Shown piece after piece: positions 1 to 13,454 of a stretch of 13,949 bases of DNA. The position numbers and the translations under genes are program-made. The stretch comes from Draconibacterium sp. GTDB taxonomy: Bacteria; Bacteroidota; Bacteroidia; Bacteroidales; Prolixibacteraceae. Every line of letters begins with the position of its first letter. The stretch's first letter is position 1. The stretch lies in NCBI GenBank assembly GCA_015493625.1, contig WGCT01000516.1, positions 1 through 13,949 of the forward strand. Direction: 5' to 3'. The notes under the pieces are model-generated. The model saw only the letters and a list, made by a program, of their open reading frames with translations, did not search any database and was not told the origin of the DNA.

Positions 1-797
1 CCAATCCAAGGCGCGGGCAATTTATTATTTTTGATAAATACAGCCGTCCAAAGATCAATCGAATTTTCTTGCCGATTCCTACGGCAAAGACCAAAGGTGT
101 TTTGGTTGCACCAACAATTTTTGGCAATTTAATTGCAGGTCCAACAGCCGAAGATTACCCGCATGATTATGAATCGATTTCCGAGACGACAACTGAAAAA
201 TTAGAGGGGGTACTGGAAGATGCCTCTAAACTTTATCCCGAATTAAAGAAACAACCACCCATAGGTATTTATGCAGGAGTGCGTTCCAATTGCAGTCAGG
301 GAAGTTACTGGATACGAGCCAATGATAATCACTCCGGCATTTTAACTGTGGCGGGAATACGTTCCACCGGGTTCACATCGTCTCCTGCACTGGCGGATTA
401 TCTGACAGACAAGTTACAGAATGAAATGAATTTATCTTTGGAGCCCAATCCCGAAGCATGCGACACCAGAGACGAAGAGAGTTGGCCGGGATGGTGGAAG
501 CGAAGTTATGATGATGAAAAGCGGGTAAAAGAAAACCCGGACAATGCAAAAATTGTCTGCTTTTGCGAGCAGATTACACGAGGCGACATAATCCGCCAAC
601 TGGATTCGCCTTTAAAGCCAAGAACTCTGGATGCCATTAAACGAAGGACTCGTGCCCAGATGGGCCGTTGCCAGAGCTTTGATTGCATGGTAAATATTGC
701 CGGGATTATTTCAGAACATTGCGAAATTCCATTGAACAAGATTACAAAAAAAGGATCCGGTTCAGAAATCGTTTCCACTTCATCGCAACAACAATAA
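1..797 (+). CDS. GlpA-like FAD-dependent dehydrogenase with C-terminal [2Fe-2S] domain (5' partial)
   Basis: The frame is open from the first complete codon (base 3) to TAA at 795-797, so the gene begins upstream; the TTG at 69 is internal. About 264 residues are visible, roughly the C-terminal half of a 480-500 residue family. The first part matches the end of a DAO-type FAD domain of anaerobic glycerol-3-phosphate dehydrogenases (PRRGQF, LPIPTAKTKGVLVAPT, GNLIAGPTAED, later AGIRSTGFTSSPALA near the FAD site). It is followed by a BFD-like [2Fe-2S] domain with cysteine codons at 558, 564, 669 and 684 (CxC-x34-CxxxxC) and the typical RTLDAIKRRTRAQMGRCQ stretch. Family members oxidise sn-glycerol-3-phosphate or a similar polyol phosphate and pass electrons through FAD and the cluster. 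It leads an operon with a second flavoprotein, a permease and a sugar-alcohol kinase. The exact substrate is uncertain, because the kinase and transporter are atypical for glycerol. Confidence 0.88.
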   Translation, partial: NPRRGQFIIFDKYSRPKINRIFLPIPTAKTKGVLVAPTIFGNLIAGPTAEDYPHDYESISETTTEKLEGVLEDASKLYPELKKQPPIGIYAGVRSNCSQGSYWIRANDNHSGILTVAGIRSTGFTSSPALADYLTDKLQNEMNLSLEPNPEACDTRDEESWPGWWKRSYDDEKRVKENPDNAKIVCFCEQITRGDIIRQLDSPLKPRTLDAIKRRTRAQMGRCQSFDCMVNIAGIISEHCEIPLNKITKKGSGSEIVSTSSQQQ

Positions 798-798
798 C

Positions 799-804
799 AG
801 GAGG
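799..804 (+). promoter_or_regulatory. Strong Shine-Dalgarno sequence
   Basis: AGGAGG lies 6 bases before the ATG at 811 and fixes that start. The other genes in the window have A-rich leaders without such a site, as is usual in Bacteroidota, so this one stands out. Confidence 0.7.
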
Positions 805-810
805 TACACT

Positions 811-1809
811 ATGAGTTCAACACAAAAATATAAAGTTATTATTATTGGTGGCGGACCGGCAGGAATCGGTGCTGCTATAAAACTGCACAAAAATGGGATT
901 AGACAAATTTTAGTAATCGAGAGGAATCAATCAGTCGGTGGTATTCCTTCATTTTACAAAAGAAAAAAAGGCGGAGTTAGAACATTTGTAAGATGGTCGC
1001 GTGGTGGAATCCCTGTTTTTGGTCAGGATTATGCCAAATATCTAAAGAAAAAGATTACAGATACCGGTGTTGAAATAAAGCTAAATAGCCACGTAATTGA
1101 AATTAATACCAAACAAAAAGAAGTAACCTGGGTTAGCCCAGGCGAAGGAAAAGTAACGGCAGAAGCAGAGGCAGTTGTTTTTGCAACCGGAGGAAGGGAA
1201 AAAACAATACCCGAAAGAAAATGGATTGCCGGGGCAAGAGGATCGAGAGTGATGTTTACAAAGCATTTGCTTGGCCTGTCCGATCTCAATAATTTGCATC
1301 CTGTAAATCAACCCCTGATTATTGGCTCCGATGTTATTGCCTATGCTGCTGCGGCTAAACTCAGAACCGGGGGAGCTCAAAATGCAAAAATAGCAGATAA
1401 TAAGAGTTTCCCTGATACACCATTTTACGAAAGGCTATATTTCAGGTTGTTTAGTAAGCCGTCGTTCCGGGGGAAGCAGACCAGCTCCGCTGAAATTAAA
1501 GGGAGCATAGCGGCGAACGGGGTCAAAATCAATGACCGATTCATGGATGCCGACGGAGTAATCATCAGCGGTCAGCTAATCCCCAACAGCGAACTGGCTT
1601 TGATGGGCAGTCTGGAAGTTAATATTCCTTCAAGAATCCCCGTACTTGACAATAATTTTCAACTGTCAGAACAGGGGTGGTTTGCTACAGGCAATGTCAT
1701 TGGAGGATTTCATGGTGCAGAGTGGTGCTATTATAATGGAAAGCGGGTTGCGAACTCGGTCACTAAATATCTTTCAAAACAAAAATTACTGGCTACAACA
1801 AAAAAATAA
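811..1809 (+). CDS. FAD-dependent oxidoreductase, short divergent GlpB-like subunit
   Basis: This is a 332-residue pyridine nucleotide-disulfide-type flavoprotein. An N-terminal Rossmann motif GGGPAG (residues 13-18) is followed by the ribose-binding acid E37 in LVIERN. An ATGG motif sits at 125-128 and the second FAD motif WFATGNVIGG near 290-299, as in the GlpB/HcnB-like partners of [2Fe-2S] glycerol-3-phosphate dehydrogenases. The middle dinucleotide-binding region is degenerate (IIGSDVIA, 170-177) and the protein is about 80-90 residues shorter than typical partners of about 420, mostly in that region. It starts 13 bp after the GlpA-like gene and lies 5 bp before the EutH-like gene, so the two flavoproteins probably form one complex that re-oxidises the dehydrogenase. 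A role in NAD(P)H turnover is doubtful given the weak second Rossmann motif. The FAD fold is clear; the partner assignment rests on context. Confidence 0.8.
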   Translation: MSSTQKYKVIIIGGGPAGIGAAIKLHKNGIRQILVIERNQSVGGIPSFYKRKKGGVRTFVRWSRGGIPVFGQDYAKYLKKKITDTGVEIKLNSHVIEINTKQKEVTWVSPGEGKVTAEAEAVVFATGGREKTIPERKWIAGARGSRVMFTKHLLGLSDLNNLHPVNQPLIIGSDVIAYAAAAKLRTGGAQNAKIADNKSFPDTPFYERLYFRLFSKPSFRGKQTSSAEIKGSIAANGVKINDRFMDADGVIISGQLIPNSELALMGSLEVNIPSRIPVLDNNFQLSEQGWFATGNVIGGFHGAEWCYYNGKRVANSVTKYLSKQKLLATTKK

Positions 1810-1814
1810 AAAAT

Positions 1815-2891
1815 ATGGAATTTGAAACTATAATCATTTGGCTTATGGCCATCGGTATTCTTGTTGGCGGAATTGATAGGATTATTGGGAATAAACTGGG
1901 ACTGGGGGAACAATTCGAAGAGGGCTTTAATGCCATGGGGCCTCTGGCTTTAGGAATGGTTGGTATTGTTACATTGGCACCAGTAATATCTAAATTACTA
2001 GGCCCTGTTATTATCCCGATATTCACGTCCATAGGTGCCGACCCCGCAATGTTTGCAAGCATACTGGCAAACGACATGGGAGGATACCCTTTGGCTATGG
2101 AACTTGCTCAGAATCCCGATGCAGGCTTATTATCGGGTTTAATTGTTTCTTCTATGATGGGCTGTACCATTGTTTTTTCAATTCCTGTTGGCTTGGGACT
2201 GATTCAGGAAACTGATAGACCCTATTTTGCAAAAGGCTTATTAATAGGGTTGATAACAATTCCTTTTGGTGGAATTGTAGGAGGATTGGTTGCGGGATTC
2301 GATACGGTCATGGTTATAAAAAACAACTTTCCTATATTAATCCTATCTGCTTTTTTGGTTACCGGCTTACTATTTTTTCAAAAAGGCATGATTAAAGGGG
2401 CTATTCTGTTTGGAAAATTTATAGTAATTGTTATTACAATCGGATTAATTGCTTCAGCTTTTCAGGAGTTAACAGGTGTGGTCATTATTCCTCACATGAC
2501 ACCCATTATGGAAGCCATGAAAATTATTGCTACAATTGCTATTGTGCTGCTGGGTGTCTTTCCTGTGGTAACATTAATTACAAAATTCCTGAAGAAACCT
2601 TTAACTGCACTCGGGAAGAAATTGGGAATGGATGCTACTTCTACTGCCGGTATAGTTATTACGATGGCAAACAGTATTCCGGTTTATAAAATGATGAAAG
2701 ATATGGAACCGAGAGGGAAAGTCATCAACACTGCCTGGCTTGTTCCTGCAACCGCAGTATTAGGCGATCATCTTGGATTTACAGCAGCTGTAAACTCTGA
2801 AATGATAACACCGGTTGTTTTGGGAAAATTCTCAGCAGGAATTCTGGCTGTTGTGCTGGCTCTATTATTTACAAAAACAAAAAAAGCATGA
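1815..2891 (+). CDS. eutH: EutH-type small-molecule permease
   Basis: This 358-residue protein is almost wholly hydrophobic, with about ten membrane segments, and sits in the inner membrane. It carries the EutH family hallmarks: FNAMGPLALGMVGIVTLAP near 39-57, ANDMGGYPLA at 85-94, ANSIP at 285-289 and GDHLGFTA at 317-324. E. coli EutH is about 400 residues; the shorter length resembles forms from Gram-positive bacteria. Characterised EutH proteins facilitate ethanolamine entry. Here no ethanolamine ammonia-lyase, microcompartment shell protein or other Eut gene is present. Instead it lies between GlpB-like and GlpK-like genes and overlaps the kinase by ATGA, the slot where GlpF would be expected. 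The inferred role is uptake of the operon's substrate, a small polyol or amino alcohol. Family membership is well supported; the substrate is not known. Confidence 0.87.
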   Translation: MEFETIIIWLMAIGILVGGIDRIIGNKLGLGEQFEEGFNAMGPLALGMVGIVTLAPVISKLLGPVIIPIFTSIGADPAMFASILANDMGGYPLAMELAQNPDAGLLSGLIVSSMMGCTIVFSIPVGLGLIQETDRPYFAKGLLIGLITIPFGGIVGGLVAGFDTVMVIKNNFPILILSAFLVTGLLFFQKGMIKGAILFGKFIVIVITIGLIASAFQELTGVVIIPHMTPIMEAMKIIATIAIVLLGVFPVVTLITKFLKKPLTALGKKLGMDATSTAGIVITMANSIPVYKMMKDMEPRGKVINTAWLVPATAVLGDHLGFTAAVNSEMITPVVLGKFSAGILAVVLALLFTKTKKA

Positions 2892-4378
2892 AATATTTTT
2901 TAGGTATTGATCAGGGAACCACAGGAACAACATCAATTATTTTTGATGAAAAATGGAATATCTGTGGTAAGGGGTATTTTGAACACAAACAATACTATCC
3001 GCAACCCGGTTGGGTAGAACACAATCCGGAAGAAATCTGGGATAAAACAAAAGAATCAGTAGCAGAGGCATTAAACCATGCAAAAATTAATGCGAAAGAA
3101 TTAGCTGCTATTGGATTGGATAACCAGGGTGAAACCTGTATGATTTGGGACAAAAAAACCGGAAAGCCTGTATATAATGCCATTGTATGGCAAGACAGAA
3201 GAACATCAAAGCAGGCTGATGAATTAAAAGATGAGTATGGCGACCTGATTATGCAAAAAACAGGGTTGACAATTGACGCCTATTTTTCTGCATTAAAAAT
3301 TAAATGGATACTGGAAAACGTACCAGGAACAAAAGAAAAAGCAGAAAAAGGTGATCTGCTTGTTGGCACCTTAGACACATGGCTTTTATGGAAAATGACC
3401 GGAAAAAAAGTCTATATCACTGATTCTTCCACCGCTTCCAGAACCATGTTATTTAATATTCACACCAATAAGTGGGACGATGAAATACTGAATTTCATTG
3501 GAATTCCGGCATCAATTTTACCCGAAATTAAAACCAGTTCTGAAATATACGGTTACACAGACCAGTGTTTTCTCGATGCCCGTGTTCCTATCGCAGGAAG
3601 CGTTGTCGATCAGGCAGCTGCACTATTTGGCCAAGCTTGTTTCGATAAGGGTACCGTAAAAACTACTTATGGTACGGGCTGCTTTATGTTGATGAATACA
3701 GGAGAAAAACCGGTTTATTCAAATAATGGGTTGCTTACAACTGCTGTTTGGAGTTTAGATGGAAAAATAACATATGCTTTAGACGGAGGAGTATACATTG
3801 GCGGCGCTGCAGTTCAATGGCTACGCGATGGAATAGGAATTATTAATAATGCAAGTGAAACTGAAGCATTAGCGAAGTCAGTTCCCGATACTTCCGGGGT
3901 CTATTTTGTTCCTGCTTTTTCGGGTTTAGCTGCTCCTTATTGGGATCAATATGCGAGAGGCACAATGGTTGGAATTACCGGAGGAACAAATAAGGCACAC
4001 ATTGTTAGAGCGACTTTAGAGGCAATCGCTTATCAGGTTGCCGAAAACCTGGAGGTGATGGAGAAAGATTCCGGTATTAAAATCGAAACAATGCGTGTTG
4101 ACGGTGGTGCTGTGGCAAACTCATTTCTAATGCAATTTCAGGCAGATATTCTTGGGATTCCTGTTGATGTGCCTGTTATCACAGAAACAACTGCCTTAGG
4201 TGCTGCGTACCTTGCTGCGCTGGGAGTTGGGGAATTAGATTCTGTCGATTCTATTAAAAATGTCTGGAAATTAAATAAGAGATATATGCCTCAAACTAAC
4301 AAGAATCAAAGAAAGACGATGATGGAACAGTGGAAAAAAGCTGTCGCAAGGTCGAGAAACTGGATTGATAAGGAGTAA
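2888..4378 (+). CDS. GlpK-like FGGY-family kinase, substrate pocket altered
   Basis: At 496 residues this has the normal length of glycerol kinase and is clearly GlpK-like along its full length: phosphate motif GIDQGTTGTT (6-15), KPVYNAIVWQDRRT, YGTGCFMLMNTGE (261-273), GAAVQWLRDG, and the FGGY signature MRVDGGAVANSFLMQFQADI. FGGY kinases transfer phosphate from ATP to a sugar alcohol in the cytosol. Of the E. coli GlpK glycerol contacts (R83, E84, Y135, D245, Q246, F270), the equivalents E82, Y132, D241, Q242 and F266 are present, but the arginine is Gly81 (codon GGT at 3128). The usual GDQQAAL is also VDQAAAL here. Its start overlaps the stop of the EutH-like gene, indicating translational coupling. 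It may phosphorylate glycerol weakly, or a related compound such as another polyol or an amino alcohol. The symbol glpK is withheld for that reason. Confidence 0.88.
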   Translation: MKYFLGIDQGTTGTTSIIFDEKWNICGKGYFEHKQYYPQPGWVEHNPEEIWDKTKESVAEALNHAKINAKELAAIGLDNQGETCMIWDKKTGKPVYNAIVWQDRRTSKQADELKDEYGDLIMQKTGLTIDAYFSALKIKWILENVPGTKEKAEKGDLLVGTLDTWLLWKMTGKKVYITDSSTASRTMLFNIHTNKWDDEILNFIGIPASILPEIKTSSEIYGYTDQCFLDARVPIAGSVVDQAAALFGQACFDKGTVKTTYGTGCFMLMNTGEKPVYSNNGLLTTAVWSLDGKITYALDGGVYIGGAAVQWLRDGIGIINNASETEALAKSVPDTSGVYFVPAFSGLAAPYWDQYARGTMVGITGGTNKAHIVRATLEAIAYQVAENLEVMEKDSGIKIETMRVDGGAVANSFLMQFQADILGIPVDVPVITETTALGAAYLAALGVGELDSVDSIKNVWKLNKRYMPQTNKNQRKTMMEQWKKAVARSRNWIDKE

Positions 4379-5181: not shown

Positions 5182-6057
5182 ATGAACAGACGTAATTTTA
5201 TAAAAACCTCTTCGGTAGTTCTTACGGGAACAGTTATATTTCCGGGTTGTGGAATGGGAAAGAGCAATGAATTGAGATTCGGGTGGGTGACCGACATTCA
5301 CTATGCGTTGGCAAAACCCAGGGAGAATAAGTACTATACTGAAAGCTTGACAAAGTTAAAGGAGGCAATCGATTTGTACCGCATGTCTGATTTGGATTTT
5401 GTTATTGAATTGGGAGATTTTGTAGATGAGAACAAAATACCGGTATTTGAAAAATCATTACAATATCTGCACAGTGTTGAAGCAGAGTTTTGCAAATATG
5501 AAGGAGATAGGTATCATGTTTTAGGCAATCACGACATGAATAGTTTGTCAAAGAGTGATTTTTTGAATGCTATTGAGAACACTGGGATTTCTAACGAACA
5601 CTCTTTCTATAGTTTTCAAAAAAATGGTTTCAAATGTATCGTTCTTGATGCTTGCTATCGGTCTGATGGCGTTGTTTATGACAAGGGTAATTTTGAATGG
5701 ACAGATACAATTATTCCCGATGCTCAGCTGAAGTGGTTGAAAGAGGAGCTGAATAAAAGCAATAGCCCCATTTTGATTTTTGTACATCAACTGCTCGATG
5801 GTAAGGGAGATCTCTATGTGAATAACAGCGTTCAGGTTAGAGAGATATTGGAGGAGTCGGGAAAAGTATTTGCTGTTTTCCAGGGGCATCAACACAAAGG
5901 GCAATACAATAAAATCAACAATATTCACTATATCACCGAGAAAGCACTAGTTGATGGTAGTGGAGCTGAGAATAACAGCTATTGCATTGTTACGGTAAAA
6001 GGAACGGACCAGATTGTAATTGACGGTTATCGCAGAATGGAGGATATGAAGCTATAA
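5182..6057 (+). CDS. Secreted metallophosphoesterase (calcineurin-like)
   Basis: This 291-residue protein has the ordered metal-binding motifs of calcineurin-like phosphoesterases: DIH (38-40), GDFVD (78-82), GNHD (115-118), VHQ (201-203) and GHQH (235-238), which together build the two-metal site. The N-terminus has a twin-arginine-like RRNFIK (3-8), a hydrophobic run, and FPGC with Cys23 at a lipobox-like position. It is therefore probably exported, perhaps by Tat as a lipoprotein, and acts outside the cytoplasm on a phosphoester or phosphodiester. The substrate cannot be read from sequence; similar proteins include nucleotide-sugar or CDP-alcohol pyrophosphatases and alkaline phosphatase-like enzymes. 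It stands alone, flanked on both sides by gene-poor decayed DNA, with an A-rich leader (TTATTAAAATG) and no Shine-Dalgarno site. Confidence 0.88.
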   Translation: MNRRNFIKTSSVVLTGTVIFPGCGMGKSNELRFGWVTDIHYALAKPRENKYYTESLTKLKEAIDLYRMSDLDFVIELGDFVDENKIPVFEKSLQYLHSVEAEFCKYEGDRYHVLGNHDMNSLSKSDFLNAIENTGISNEHSFYSFQKNGFKCIVLDACYRSDGVVYDKGNFEWTDTIIPDAQLKWLKEELNKSNSPILIFVHQLLDGKGDLYVNNSVQVREILEESGKVFAVFQGHQHKGQYNKINNIHYITEKALVDGSGAENNSYCIVTVKGTDQIVIDGYRRMEDMKL

Positions 6058-6351: not shown

Positions 6352-6755
6352 TTACTCTTGATGGAATAGACACAGCCTCTACAACAAACTTTTTCACAAA
6401 TGAAACTGCCGGAATAGTTCTTAATAACACACTCACTGTTAATATTGGCCACTACAACAATGTTCATTGGGTTTTAGAATGACACGATAATAGTACTACT
6501 ATTCCCAAAACCAATCCGACCTCCATCAAGATCTACCCCAACCCGGCAACAAATTATATCTATATTAATTCTTCCAAAACACCTTTAAATAAAAGTGAAA
6601 TTATTAATATTACAGGTACAATAGTTAAAAATATCTTATTTTCTGAAAATAACAGTGCGGCCATAAATATTTCAAACCTTGCCAAAGGGGTTTATTTTAT
6701 AAAAACCTATACAACAGATAATGAAGTTACGGTTACCAAGGAAATAATTAATTAA
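6306..6755 (+). pseudogene. Relic of a T9SS-exported protein (C-terminal sorting domain)
   Basis: This frame has no start codon and one internal TGA (6480-6482), with TAA at 6753-6755. After the TGA it encodes a typical type IX secretion C-terminal sorting domain: SIKIYPNPATNYIYI near the beginning, then EIINITGTIV, INISNLAKGVYFIKTYT, and a basic end. Before the TGA, residues such as TNFFTNETAGIVLNNTLTV and GHYNNVHWVL look like the end of a beta-rich cargo domain. In Bacteroidota such domains send surface or secreted enzymes and adhesins through the T9SS. Only the tail remains, so the cargo cannot be named. A recent nonsense mutation alone would not explain the missing 5' part; deletion or rearrangement is inferred. 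Confidence 0.75.
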
Positions 6756-6805
6756 AAGGCAAAAACGGCTTCGGCCTATATTGAACAGAAAAAAAAATTA
6801 AATAT

Positions 6806-8239
6806 ATGATGATGAAAAGAAACAGTTGTCTTAATAGGAGGAGTTACATTATTCTTATAATCATTATGCTCACAGGAGTTTCTAATACTTCCTCCGGTCA
6901 GCAGTACGTTTCATTTAATTTTGCTCACAAAGAGGACAAGATTAAAGCACTAAACGGGATAAATGTTGGTACAGAGAGAAGACTGGCCGGTAACACTGAT
7001 TATATGATCCGCACTTATGCCGATTTGAAAATCCCGATTACTCGTTTGCACGATTGTCAATTTACCAACCACGGTGTTGTGGACATTCCGGCTATTTTCC
7101 CTCTTTTCCATCTCAATGCTGATGACCCTGAAAATTACAACTTCAAAAAAACTGACGATTATATTTTAGATATCCTGAAAAGTGGTTCTAAAATTAGTTA
7201 CAGGTTAGGAGTAGATATAGAACATACAAAAAACAAATACCACATCTTTCCTCCCGAAGATTTTGATAAATGGGCCAAAATATGCGTAAACATCATACGT
7301 CATTATAATGACGGTTGGGCCAATGGATACCACATGAATATACAATACTGGGAAATTTGGAATGAACCCGGTGGAAAGGATGAGATGTGGATGGCTGATA
7401 TTGAACGATACTACAAATTGTATGAAACTGCCGTGAAGGCCATTAAAAAATATGACCCGGAACTAAAGGTAGGCACTGCCGGCATCGGCCCTTACCGGAC
7501 CGGCCCGGGATTGGTCAAGTACTGCAAAGAGCATAAGCTCCCAATAGACTTTTTCCCTTGGCACATGTACACATCAAGTATAAAATTTGTAGACTCTACA
7601 GCTTATTATGTGCGGAAGTTGCTCGACGACAACGGATATAAAAACACAAAGATACATCTGAACGAGTGGAATTATTTTCCTGAGGGTGGCGATTGGGGAA
7701 AACTTTTTAAAGACAAGATTTATTGGAAAGACCTTGCACGGAACAAAATAGGAGGGATGGAAGGTGCTGCCTTTACCGCTTCCATGCTTATCGATATGCA
7801 AGACCTGCCAATCGATTTGGCTTGTTATTATAGTGGCGATTGGACAATCTTTGGTTTATTTGATGAATATGGCATAACTAAAAAACCTTTTTTTGCCTAT
7901 AAAGCGTTCTCCATGCTACTTAATACCCCCAACAGGATAAAATGTGACAAGCAACAGCTGCCGGAAGGTATGTTTGTCATTGGTGGTGTGAATAGCTCCA
8001 ATAACCTGGCAACTATCATGCTCAGCAATTACACTTCCAAGCAAGACTCATTGGATATGAATATCTCAGGGCTTCCATGGGAGGAAGAAACACGAACTGA
8101 GATTTTTGTGCTGAATCATGAAAATAACCTAACCCCGGTAGCCAATGAACAGGTAATGCAGGGAAACTCTTTTGAAATAAAAGAACATGTACCCGCCCCA
8201 TCGGTTATGCTTATCAGGTTTTACCCGGTTAAAGAATAA
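6806..8239 (+). CDS. GH39-family glycoside hydrolase, secreted
   Basis: This 477-residue protein has an N-terminal signal sequence (basic start, hydrophobic YIILIIIMLTGV, predicted cut near SSGQ around residue 32). A TIM-barrel follows with WEIWNEPGG, giving the likely acid/base Glu187, and IHLNEWNY, giving the likely nucleophile Glu287. The roughly 100-residue spacing, N-terminal RLHD strand and FFPWHMY motif match GH39, whose known members include beta-xylosidases, alpha-L-iduronidases and exopolysaccharide hydrolases. These are retaining enzymes. The C-terminal 110 residues form a small beta domain. Three consecutive ATG codons (6806, 6809, 6812) make the exact start ambiguous by two residues. 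It lies 323 bp before the GH78 rhamnosidase on the same strand. A role in releasing xylose, uronic acid or a similar residue from a rhamnose-containing polymer is inferred. No T9SS domain is present. Confidence 0.85.
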   Translation: MMMKRNSCLNRRSYIILIIIMLTGVSNTSSGQQYVSFNFAHKEDKIKALNGINVGTERRLAGNTDYMIRTYADLKIPITRLHDCQFTNHGVVDIPAIFPLFHLNADDPENYNFKKTDDYILDILKSGSKISYRLGVDIEHTKNKYHIFPPEDFDKWAKICVNIIRHYNDGWANGYHMNIQYWEIWNEPGGKDEMWMADIERYYKLYETAVKAIKKYDPELKVGTAGIGPYRTGPGLVKYCKEHKLPIDFFPWHMYTSSIKFVDSTAYYVRKLLDDNGYKNTKIHLNEWNYFPEGGDWGKLFKDKIYWKDLARNKIGGMEGAAFTASMLIDMQDLPIDLACYYSGDWTIFGLFDEYGITKKPFFAYKAFSMLLNTPNRIKCDKQQLPEGMFVIGGVNSSNNLATIMLSNYTSKQDSLDMNISGLPWEEETRTEIFVLNHENNLTPVANEQVMQGNSFEIKEHVPAPSVMLIRFYPVKE

Positions 8240-11360: not shown

Positions 11361-13454
11361 ATGCGTTTTTTTCATCTTATTGTTTTGCTGGCTTTTGCCG
11401 TTCAGTTAAATGCACAAAACAGCAACACACAGCAACAAAAAACTCCACCATCAAAAAAAGGAATTGTCTTAGCGGGCAGTTCAATTACTTGGGGCGATGG
11501 AAGTATCTTGGGGCACTTCTCCGGACAGGTAGTTGATTATATTCAAAACGAACTGGCAACAACAGTTTTATGTACCGGAATGAATTTTACTGCCGGTGTT
11601 GCTGATTTTAAAAACCCGTTGCAATACAAAGGCATCGGGAAAAAGATTTCGGGAATAAATTCGAAAGTTGAATTCGATTTATATGGCGATGAAATTGCAA
11701 TTTGCCAGACAAAATTAAGAACCCCCGATTTTGCTGTTTTACAAGTAAAAGCCGATGGCGAAATAATCGGAACATTTACCAACCACAACAAAAATATTGG
11801 TAACGAAATTCAACATTTTACCGGCAATGGGGAAACGGTAAAGTTTATGCTGAATCATCCGGCTACCTGGTTGCACCGGGTAACAATTAACGGCAACACA
11901 GTTGAAGGGGAAATTTACACCGGCGGCTGGTCGCGAAAAGTTCCCGAGAATCCGGGATTTCTTATCATCCGCAAACTCGACAACAACCAGCAACCGAAAC
12001 ATTTTATCTGGTTTAAAACAGCTCCCGCAAAAGGGGCAAATATTGAAGTTGCCTATCGGTACGGCAGAATTGTTGCTTTCGAGAAATCGACAGTGGGGCA
12101 GCTTGCCAATGCCGAAAAAAACGAGACTCCCTACGGCGAAGGAACGGTTTCTTTCGACCCTGCAAACCCTGCCGTTCTTTCTTCCGGCCTCGAATACCGG
12201 TCGATTGACAGGGATGCCTTTTGGATTCATAAATTTACCACGGCAAAAAAACGCCATTACGAGGTAGAAATTATTGGAGGTAAGAATCCCTATTTTATTA
12301 TCAATTTTGCATCGAATAGATTTCATAATTTTATGAATGCCGGAATTGGCGGATGGAAACTTGCCAACCTGCTCGATAACGATGGCATTAACGATTATAA
12401 CGGTTTTTTCGAAAAATTTATACCCGACATTTTGGTTAACGAGAGTGCCACAAACGACGACTGGGCTTTTGGCGAACGAAAAGTGAAACGCACAGTTACC
12501 GGATTAACCGAAAAAGAGGTAAAACAACTTTGGGCACTTGAACTCGACAAAATTACCTACAACAAAAAAAGCAACGACTATACCGTGCGGTTGTGCAGCG
12601 GAATAATTTCGTCGGCCGGAAGGTTTTCGTTAACCTGCCCGCAAATTGTCGGGTCAGATGTTGCTCCCGGCGATATTATTCGAATTGGCACCTACCACGG
12701 CGATAACCGGCAGGTGGTTTGCCGGGAAATAGAAACCGTTGATTTGCAAAGCGGAAAAGTTACCTGGCTCGAACCTCTCACGCCCGAACAGATTTTAAAC
12801 GTAAACAGTTACAGCGATTTAACCGGTGCCGAATGTGCAGTACGCAATTTGTCGAGCTACAAAAAACAGTACAAAGAACTTATTACAAATCTTCAAAAAA
12901 TAGCACCGCAAACTCAACTGTTAATTGCCCAGCCCGGCTTATCGAATTACCGGCGCCGTGCGCTGTGGGGGTACAATATTATTCACAGGCAACTGGCAAC
13001 CGAATTCCATAATGTAAGCACCATCGAAGTTACCGACTGGCTTTACGATTATCAACAGGGAAATATTTCGGGAAAAAGTTTTGTTGAAATTGAGGCCACC
13101 GGCAACAACGAATATACGCTACCGTGGAGCGGCCACTGGCAAGGGTTCGAAGTGTGGGTAAACAATAAAAATGTTTACGGAACCGACTGCTATATTGAAT
13201 GTGGTTGGGGCTATTCGGTAAATCAGGAAGGAACAGGCAGCCAATTAAATATTGAAAAGAGTTACGATAAAAGTCATTCGGTAAAACGAAAGATGAAACT
13301 TGTATTTACCAGAAATAGCCCGCAAAAAGGAAAAATAAGAGTGGTTCGGGCCGATTCGGTCTGGTCGCCCGATTTTTGCCATACCACCGTAAAAGGGGGT
13401 TATGTTTACGGGCAAATTTATATTAGCCGATTAAACGATTTTATTGGAGAATAG
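11361..13454 (+). CDS. Large secreted SGNH/GDSL-type hydrolase (probable carbohydrate esterase)
   Basis: This 697-residue protein has a signal peptide (MRFFHLIVLLAFAVQLNA, cut after Ala18). SGNH blocks are recognisable but far apart: block I LAGSSITWGDGS with Ser41, block II NAGIGGW (326-332), block III VNESATNDDW (359-368) with Asn365, and block V SPDFCHTTVKGG with Asp671 and His674. A normal SGNH enzyme needs about 200-250 residues. Here a roughly 280-residue beta-rich region separates blocks I and II, and further beta-rich pieces lie near 380-470 (VAPGDIIRIGTYHGD) and 575-660. The catalytic set is complete, so activity is expected. Ester removal (acetyl or similar) from a polysaccharide in the periplasm or outside is inferred from the adjacent GH78 rhamnosidase 20 bp upstream. 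The exact ester is unknown. Confidence 0.82.
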   Translation: MRFFHLIVLLAFAVQLNAQNSNTQQQKTPPSKKGIVLAGSSITWGDGSILGHFSGQVVDYIQNELATTVLCTGMNFTAGVADFKNPLQYKGIGKKISGINSKVEFDLYGDEIAICQTKLRTPDFAVLQVKADGEIIGTFTNHNKNIGNEIQHFTGNGETVKFMLNHPATWLHRVTINGNTVEGEIYTGGWSRKVPENPGFLIIRKLDNNQQPKHFIWFKTAPAKGANIEVAYRYGRIVAFEKSTVGQLANAEKNETPYGEGTVSFDPANPAVLSSGLEYRSIDRDAFWIHKFTTAKKRHYEVEIIGGKNPYFIINFASNRFHNFMNAGIGGWKLANLLDNDGINDYNGFFEKFIPDILVNESATNDDWAFGERKVKRTVTGLTEKEVKQLWALELDKITYNKKSNDYTVRLCSGIISSAGRFSLTCPQIVGSDVAPGDIIRIGTYHGDNRQVVCREIETVDLQSGKVTWLEPLTPEQILNVNSYSDLTGAECAVRNLSSYKKQYKELITNLQKIAPQTQLLIAQPGLSNYRRRALWGYNIIHRQLATEFHNVSTIEVTDWLYDYQQGNISGKSFVEIEATGNNEYTLPWSGHWQGFEVWVNNKNVYGTDCYIECGWGYSVNQEGTGSQLNIEKSYDKSHSVKRKMKLVFTRNSPQKGKIRVVRADSVWSPDFCHTTVKGGYVYGQIYISRLNDFIGE

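Follow-up and report, generated by a model that had tools for sequence, protein, structure and literature searches.

The subject of this report is a stretch of DNA of 13,949 nucleotides (hereafter the window) from a draft genome of Draconibacterium sp., and in particular four genes at its left-hand end that encode two flavin enzymes (A and B), a permease of the EutH family and a kinase of the GlpK family (K). On our reading these genes form an operon for the catabolism of a small amino alcohol, with serinol (2-amino-1,3-propanediol) as the most likely one, and we give this reading a probability of about 0.5. It is carried by a gene set conserved across phyla, by residue changes in the kinase that recur in every copy aligned, and by two partners, the permease and the oxidising enzyme, that are exchanged for other protein families in other lineages. 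Most likely, then, the operon is a real, conserved and probably misannotated variant of the glycerol pathway, with an amino alcohol as the likeliest substrate and serinol as the leading candidate. Loci and genomes compared are numbered L and G; the window's own genome is G000, with its contigs numbered C, and the window is the entire contig C516. The features on which the argument turns are as follows:

3..797, + strand: A, the C-terminal part of a DAO-family flavin adenine dinucleotide (FAD) dehydrogenase with a BFD-like [2Fe-2S] domain, GlpO/GlpA-like; no start, the 5' end being cut by the contig start (Pfam DAO, C-terminal part, and Fer2_BFD)
811..1809, + strand: B, an FAD/pyridine-nucleotide oxidoreductase-like flavoprotein, A's partner (Pfam Pyr_redox_2)
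1815..2891, + strand: EutH-family permease of the kinase-linked clade (PF04346, 457 bits; NF011666; EutH tree)
2888..4378, + strand: K, a GlpK-family FGGY kinase with an altered glycerol site (FGGY_N/FGGY_C; TIGR01311, 683 bits; signature NQGET / VVDQ / ALDGGVY)
3128..3130, + strand: codon 81 of K (Gly), equivalent to Arg83 of E. coli GlpK (DNA motif pattern match at 3119-3151)

The open reading frames of all four genes lie on the same strand with intergenic gaps of 13, 5 and -4 bp, a packing already given by the initial annotation, which was made from the sequence alone and described a glycerol-like operon with EutH in place of GlpF. That layout stands, but the description misses the altered site of the kinase and the replacement elsewhere of EutH by an APC permease and of the flavin enzymes by an aminotransferase.

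The substrate site of the kinase

By score K belongs with GlpK, exceeding the cut-off of the glycerol kinase model TIGR01311 (683 against 590 bits), and among solved structures it is closest to the glycerol kinases. Its residues tell a different story. As described in PMC3245297, GlpK is set apart among FGGY kinases by Arg83, Glu84, Tyr135, Asp245 and Phe270, identical among the clusters analysed there; in the window four of these are retained whilst Arg83 is replaced by Gly. In the Plasmodium falciparum enzyme, according to the account in PMC2680290, Arg83 touches the glycerol hydroxyls and bridges the two domains to Glu306.

The replacement is general. Gly occupies the Arg83 position in 35/35 kinases of the K type and Arg in 43/43 others, in all 22 kinases from EutH loci, the window included (21 with the motif NQGET, one with NEGET), and, of the 120 best-matching database homologues, in 119, the motif not being found in the remaining one. 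Since the kinases were sorted into groups by this motif (NQGET/NEGET against NQRET), the comparison at site 81 is circular, but six other sites switch between the same groups and are not: residue 13 (Gly in 34 of 35, against Ser in 40 of 43), residue 33 (His 32/35, Phe 39/43), residue 182 (Thr 35/35, Asn 43/43), residue 240 (Val 34/35, Gly 43/43), residue 299 (Asp 34/35, Glu 43/43) and residue 303 (Tyr 35/35, Phe 40/43). The bridge seen in the P. falciparum enzyme is thus altered on both sides, its Glu (placed by the E-G-S context) being Asp in 34/35. Glu82, Trp101 and Asp241 are invariant in both groups, and the pocket Glu, Trp, Asp and Phe are retained in 35/35 K-type kinases and the Tyr in 34, so that a glycerol-like frame persists. 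A single branch with support 100/98 separates the two groups in a maximum-likelihood tree of 36 + 43 rows, in which the window's kinase appears twice. By its sequence K is not an ordinary glycerol kinase, and the residues argue against ordinary glycerol specificity.

The NQGET type is rare. The DNA pattern of the motif was found in 3/395 genomes of the window's phylum, G000 included (reversed-pattern control 0), and, around two genomes chosen as centres since they carry the kinase, in 7/391 genomes in the class of G499 (control 0) and 8/398 in the class of G508 (control 1). Kinases listed for the window's relatives are at most 55% identical to K, and the 29 with a fetched locus are all NQRET.

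Another divergent GlpK-like kinase, 41-42% identical to K, of NQRET type and long-branched in the kinase tree, is encoded at L131:9418-10917 and L134:13735-15219. It is accompanied by two genes, of 313/305 and 273 residues, that by eye resemble transketolase halves.

Distribution and neighbourhoods

A scan of named genomes with the EutH sequence gave 49 loci. In 21 of these a GlpK-family kinase adjoins EutH or lies one gene away, and a further locus, L009, is cut inside such a kinase; the other 27 were not annotated gene by gene. The layout is therefore more than chance, and the recurrence of the pair across phyla, which had been set beforehand as a check, is borne out. The set is found in Bacteroidota, Ignavibacteriota (Melioribacteraceae), Bacillota and one actinomycete. 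The usual order in Bacillota is DeoR regulator, EutH, K, A, B and a third protein that we take to be of the DUF1667 type; in Bacteroidota and Ignavibacteriota, the window apart, it is GlpT-like antiporter, A, B, permease, in some cases a PHP-domain protein, K and PhoD-like phosphatases.

For counts of neighbours we used 28 distinct loci in which K is flanked by at least 3 kb on either side (the window being kept with 2.9 kb), taking the genes within 6 kb of K; many of these loci are near relatives, and the counts are therefore not independent. Left out, with less than 3 kb on one side, were among others L010 (aminotransferase), L013, L018 and L049 (A), L008 and L009 (cut), L185 (neither enzyme) and L194/L198 (APC, cut), together with L124, a copy of L002. 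Apart from the partners described below, no other enzyme family is shared by at least three of the 28 loci outside one species group at up to 6 kb from K, save PHP-domain, CoxG-like and PhoD-like proteins (the last in six loci). Among the conserved neighbours that the initial annotation proposed looking for, an aminotransferase and a DeoR regulator are present in some lineages; no isomerase or aldolase recurs within this distance in three or more loci.

The PhoD-like proteins are found in six Bacteroidota and Ignavibacteriota loci (L002, L003, L004, L020, L121 and L122; profile-confirmed in L002 and L121). At L121:6011-9330 and L002:11709-16759 PhoD-type phosphatases follow the kinase, one copy in each with a type IX secretion sorting domain, and in the PhoD-bearing loci a GlpT/PgtP-like organophosphate antiporter precedes A. 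A PHP-domain protein stands just before the kinase at L002:9164-10069 (profile-confirmed), L003:5877-6782 and L185:3523-4320, with a more distant relative within 6 kb of K in L011, L012 and L184. The substrate of PHP histidinol phosphatases is an amino-alcohol phosphate, and such a neighbour therefore fits an amine substrate. A plasmid search with K returned 455 records, all less than 60% identical; the one inspected, from Acetoanaerobium, has no annotated feature at that position.

The permease and its replacement

The window's EutH is the sole PF04346 match in G000 and lies above both family cut-offs (PF04346, 457 bits against 25; NF011666, 507 against 482), but it does not keep the company of Eut enzymes: among the nine window proteins searched against Pfam and NCBIfam (for B, the best 25 of 86 NCBIfam families) no other Eut family was matched, as the initial annotation had noted. 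Kinase-linked EutH proteins form a clade of their own (26 rows, support 99/98), in which 25 rows are kinase-linked counting L009 and one is not, L017 and L187 being the same gene. A Tepidanaerobacter assembly (LFSJ01) holds one EutH of each kind, the kinase-linked L013 and the unlinked L022. EutH had been called a channel, which is not borne out by the AlphaFold2 model (predicted local distance difference test 88): the resemblance, weak and of low confidence, is rather to elevator-type transporters.

Two Bacteroidota genomes (L121 and L122) have this operon with a single exchange: in place of EutH stands an APC amino-acid-type permease, of 473 residues in L121 and split into two adjoining open reading frames in L122. 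A permease 52-53% identical to this one adjoins an NQGET kinase in a Bacilli lineage (L195-L197, L199 and L200), whilst a search of viral contigs with the APC permease found no relative. Over the 28 loci the permease is EutH in 19, APC in 7 and neither in 2, one of the last, L183, having another AA_permease-family gene just upstream. In the kinase tree L121/L122 nest, with L020, inside the EutH-bearing loci. Both families transport amines or amino acids.

The flavin enzymes and the aminotransferase

A best matches the type 2 glycerol-3-phosphate oxidase GlpO, ahead of GlpA, though it falls under both cut-offs: against TIGR03377 (552.8 bits) the window's fragment scores 49.7 and the full-length relative in L002 96.8, and against NF033460 (460 bits) L002 scores 257 and L006 276, with 0/23 genomes over the cut-off. 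The description of A as a GlpA-like [2Fe-2S] dehydrogenase holds for its Fer2_BFD and DAO domains and needs correcting in that GlpO scores better than GlpA. Aligned with the GlpO structure 4x9m, L002 and L006 retain the catalytic residues, which beside His51 we take to be Ser47, Lys258, Arg320 and Ser348 of Mycoplasma GlpO; the His is retained in 18/18 operon copies. At 11 sites at least 20 of the 22 operon copies of A share a residue found in 0/7 others, four of these seven adjoining GlpF or an NQRET kinase and three (L167, L169 and L171) being judged ordinary from their neighbours. Three of the sites flank catalytic residues: Thr54 beside His53, and Arg341 and Thr343 around what is presumably the equivalent of Ser348. 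A relative of B is present in 23/23 A-bearing loci counted. Among the best 25 of 86 NCBIfam families for B there is no GlpB model, and judged by these matches B looks like a general flavoprotein and not a recognisable GlpB.

In C. difficile-like genomes (L010-L012 and L184), L182 and L183, K's neighbour is a class-V aminotransferase, and A and B were not found nearby. The aminotransferase is 60-65% identical between its three lineages; in L182 and L183 it is on the same strand as K, 21 bp away and 38 bp after K, respectively. Over the 28 loci the enzyme is A (+B) in 23, the aminotransferase in 5, both in none and neither in none, an exclusion that holds within 6 kb of K, the A-bearing genomes not having been searched for an aminotransferase elsewhere. 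A GlpO-like A was not found in three C. difficile-like genomes, G501-G503 (best 44 bits, against at least 232 for complete operon copies), a search that did not extend to the genomes of L182, L183 and L184. In the kinase tree L183 nests with three A-bearing relatives (L007, L014 and L049). Since L183 and L121/L122 nest among A-bearing and EutH-bearing kinases, respectively, the swaps look like the replacement of a part by another doing the same job. Glycerol-3-phosphate is of no use to a transaminase, and a job shared by an aminotransferase and a flavin oxidase is possible only on an amine, which points to an amine substrate.

The aminotransferase is closest to the 2-aminoethylphosphonate aminotransferases (PhnW) but does not reach the cut-off of TIGR03301 (360.8 bits; L010 scores 273), and the Arg of the PhnW FRIGN motif, which we take to be a functional residue, is Gln in 6/6 copies. 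Copies at least 64% identical to that of L183 occur in 4/391 Clostridia genomes, three of them among the seven with an NQGET match, a co-occurrence that a hand calculation ignoring relatedness puts at ~1e-5; three further Clostridia genomes have copies at 33-36%.

An exclusive link between the aminotransferase and K was considered and rejected, paralogues 66-67% identical to the L183 copy being present in operons without K. At L215:8919-11593 and L216:4350-9777 they stand with DeoR regulators, ABC transporters and a protein of 508-510 residues that by eye is MlrC-like, and at L217:5258-7749, on a short contig, with ABC transporter genes; a distant FGGY kinase is encoded in L216 as well. These paralogues may serve in the use of related amines. 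Upstream of the kinase-aminotransferase pair in L182, on the same strand (L182:9686-17533), are genes for two iron alcohol dehydrogenases, a TRAP-type transporter, a DHDPS-family protein and an FAD oxidoreductase.

The proposed pathway

In the pathway that we propose, EutH, or the APC permease in other lineages, would import a small amino alcohol; K, a GlpK paralogue, would phosphorylate it in a glycerol-like site that lacks the hydroxyl-contacting Arg; and deamination of the phosphorylated amine, for which the A/B flavin pair would serve here and the class-V aminotransferase elsewhere, would yield a glycolytic triose phosphate. Serinol differs from glycerol in carrying an amino group at C2. 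With this substrate the product would be dihydroxyacetone phosphate (DHAP) by either enzyme, in one deamination and with no further enzyme needed. Because, apart from the proteins named above, no further enzyme family recurs near K, kinase and deamination should suffice to reach central metabolism. Import, phosphorylation and flavin oxidation, the order that the initial annotation implied, is also the likely order of steps on our evidence, from which we infer the products as well. Of the three kinds of substrate named there, the amino alcohol is the best supported, the swaps of permease and enzyme pointing to an amine, whilst neither glycerol nor erythritol is supported as the favoured one. 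That the substrate is an amine we consider quite probable; for serinol in particular the chances are slightly short of even.

The chemistry has a counterpart in biosynthesis: RtxA and Cj1437 make serinol phosphate from DHAP by transamination, as described in PMC3222319 and PMC11800397, whereas the proposed pathway would run in reverse, after a kinase step and with a different aminotransferase or a flavoprotein. Ethanolamine and serinol adopt the same pose in one bacterial receptor (PMC12410723), which makes serinol a plausible substrate for an ethanolamine-family permease too.

Several observations weigh against serinol, and some against any amine. K exceeds the glycerol kinase cut-off, and 11 of the 23 K-bearing genomes, G000 among them, show no other GlpK over the cut-off. 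According to PMC10726252, His51 of GlpO takes hydrogen from the C2 hydroxyl; with this base retained, A may oxidise an alcohol and not an amine. The relatives of the aminotransferase in the PhnW family use a primary amine, whereas that of serinol is on C2, and the loss of the FRIGN Arg and the paralogues in operons without K count on the same side. Of the four Clostridia genomes with copies at least 64% identical to that of L183, one lacks an NQGET match; in two of the other three a second copy lies apart from K, together with genes for a DeoR regulator, an ABC transporter and an MlrC-like protein. L185, on a 7-kb contig, has K and a PHP gene with neither A nor aminotransferase, and L041, from a Synergistaceae genome, places a EutH with no kinase nearby within the kinase-linked clade. 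To these must be added the limits already given for the locus counts, the exclusion of A and aminotransferase, and the set with which A was compared. We know of no serinol-catabolic organism that links the operon to serinol.

More tentatively, we suggest an undescribed serinol pathway, present in four phyla of the sample, in which serinol enters through EutH or APC, is phosphorylated by a serinol kinase that arose by loss of the Arg, and is converted to DHAP by flavin deamination or transamination. In Bacteroidota and Ignavibacteriota the pathway would be extended by the organophosphate antiporter and by PhoD-type phosphatases, some of which bear secretion signals, so as to harvest serinol phosphate from phosphodiesters, and the same pathway would be the function of the glpK1-eutH-aminotransferase genes that are raised with toxin in C. 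difficile. Among the papers listed by a search of the open-licence literature, with subscription papers outside it, none proposes a function for the EutH-kinase pair or a serinol kinase.

Alternative substrates

The rival that survives best, though rather unlikely, is another amino alcohol used by the same logic: ethanolamine (through O-phosphoethanolamine to glycolaldehyde phosphate), 3-amino-1,2-propanediol (to glyceraldehyde 3-phosphate) or alaninol. EutH is the family of the ethanolamine permease, and the amine arguments from the swaps apply here equally. PhnW acts on the primary amine of a two-carbon phosphonate, and ethanolamine and 3-amino-1,2-propanediol stay in contention because the aminotransferase resembles such primary-amine enzymes. 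Yet K retains the residues that hold the three-carbon frame of glycerol. Glycolaldehyde phosphate, moreover, is not a central metabolite, and no further enzyme recurs beside most sets; and the two EutH proteins of LFSJ01, one kinase-linked and one not, argue for different substrates. The window's protein differs from the EutH of ethanolamine operons, with which it shares PF04346, both in its clade and in its company.

Plain glycerol (or sn-glycerol-3-phosphate) is unlikely. On this explanation EutH would transport glycerol and the change from Arg to Gly in K would merely tune affinity. It would account for the TIGR01311 score and the retained GlpO residues, and the Clostridium operon does parallel a glp operon with A, B, the DUF1667-like protein, GlpF and GlpK (L125): this clostridial glp operon (L125, L133) shares the A-B-DUF1667-like triple and a GlpK-family kinase with the EutH-type operon, which differs in having EutH or APC for GlpF, a DeoR-family regulator, NQGET and not NQRET, and the 11 group-specific sites in A. 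Against glycerol stand the loss of the substrate Arg in every aligned copy and the swaps to an aminotransferase and an APC permease, as does the presence of ordinary glycerol genes in the same genomes. Twelve of the 22 genomes with an NQGET-type kinase also hold a second kinase that scores higher for GlpK, at 731 bits or above, and the 11 of these fetched are all NQRET; Clostridium peptidivorans (G499) holds L006, the EutH operon, alongside L125, its glp operon with GlpF. A second GlpK over the cut-off was not shown in the other 10 genomes or in G000, although gaps in drafts may account for this.

Dependence of G000 on K for glycerol was considered and is not favoured. Its GlpD-GlpF genes begin 48 bp inside contig C33, and in five genomes of the same genus, with GlpD 80-83% identical to that of G000, an NQRET GlpK precedes GlpD. 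GlpK itself was not found in G000; given the position at the contig edge, where the relatives carry it, it was probably lost in an assembly gap.

A nitrogen-free polyol (erythritol, threitol, 1,2-propanediol or dihydroxyacetone), with the aminotransferase and APC permease as unrelated neighbours, is improbable: FGGY kinases take many sugars and polyols (PMC3245297) and the aminotransferase has copies in other operons, but it adjoins K in three lineages and rises with the kinase in C. difficile (PMC8803604), the two permease families carry amines or amino acids, and no isomerase or aldolase recurs near K. The erythritol pathway likewise begins with an FGGY kinase, EryA, followed by a GlpD-like dehydrogenase, EryB; K differs from EryA in exceeding the GlpK cut-off and in being closest to glycerol kinases among solved structures.

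Clostridioides difficile

The same kinase-EutH pair is found in C. difficile as glpK1 (CD630_07410) and eutH (CD630_07420), together with the aminotransferase gene CD630_07400; this trio differs from the window in having the aminotransferase instead of A/B, and is annotated as a glycerol kinase and an ethanolamine protein. Loci L010-L012 and L184, homologous to it, also have a DeoR gene. As reported in PMC8803604, glpK1 was the gene most enriched in the wild type over a toxin-less strain, and its neighbours CD630_07400 (a pyridoxal phosphate-dependent aminotransferase) and CD630_07420 (an ethanolamine utilization protein) were enriched with it. glpK1 and eutH are named together in PMC9210968, and the passages on these genes there and in PMC8803604 propose no pathway. 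Our gene set suggests a role for this unexplained trio.

If the substrate is an amino alcohol, the expression signal in toxigenic C. difficile would gain a chemical meaning, and public annotation would be wrong for the whole kinase clade, K passing the glycerol kinase model and glpK1 being read as glycerol use. The pathway would also provide a new nitrogen and carbon source for gut and anaerobic bacteria, and would mean that a kinase can turn from a polyol to an amino alcohol by giving up one Arg.

Genomic context of the window

Downstream of K the window continues with the following gene, whose membership of the system is uncertain:

5182..6057, + strand: calcineurin-type phosphoesterase, ~800 bp downstream of K (Pfam Metallophos; Tat/lipoprotein-like start by eye)

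Beyond it are a GH39-type protein, an alpha-L-rhamnosidase and a 697-residue protein without a Pfam match. The last (11361-13454) looks secreted and matches no NCBIfam family either; by eye its GSSITWGDG stretch is SGNH hydrolase-like. The GH39 gene matched 12/41 genomes, besides G000 strongly only G021, of the same genus, where the counterpart is 87% identical; misassignment of the contig to this genome is for that reason not favoured. No kinase more than 55% identical to K was listed in 100 other relatives' genomes searched, and the operon therefore looks like a recent acquisition beside polysaccharide-use genes.

To the left of the window, where the initial annotation proposed reading on, the contig has no sequence, since the window is the whole of C516. 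The missing N-terminal part of A is probably the fragment G000:C154:4437-5146 at the end of contig C154, which covers profile positions 2-205, the window's A beginning at 225. Upstream of this fragment are a sulfatase-like gene and SusC/SusD-like genes (named by eye). C154:4202-4342 matches L205:84-222 (82%), and the segment of the window around the start of the GH39 gene (6647-6874) recurs at L205:10999-11225 (83%), a different place in a genome of the same genus.

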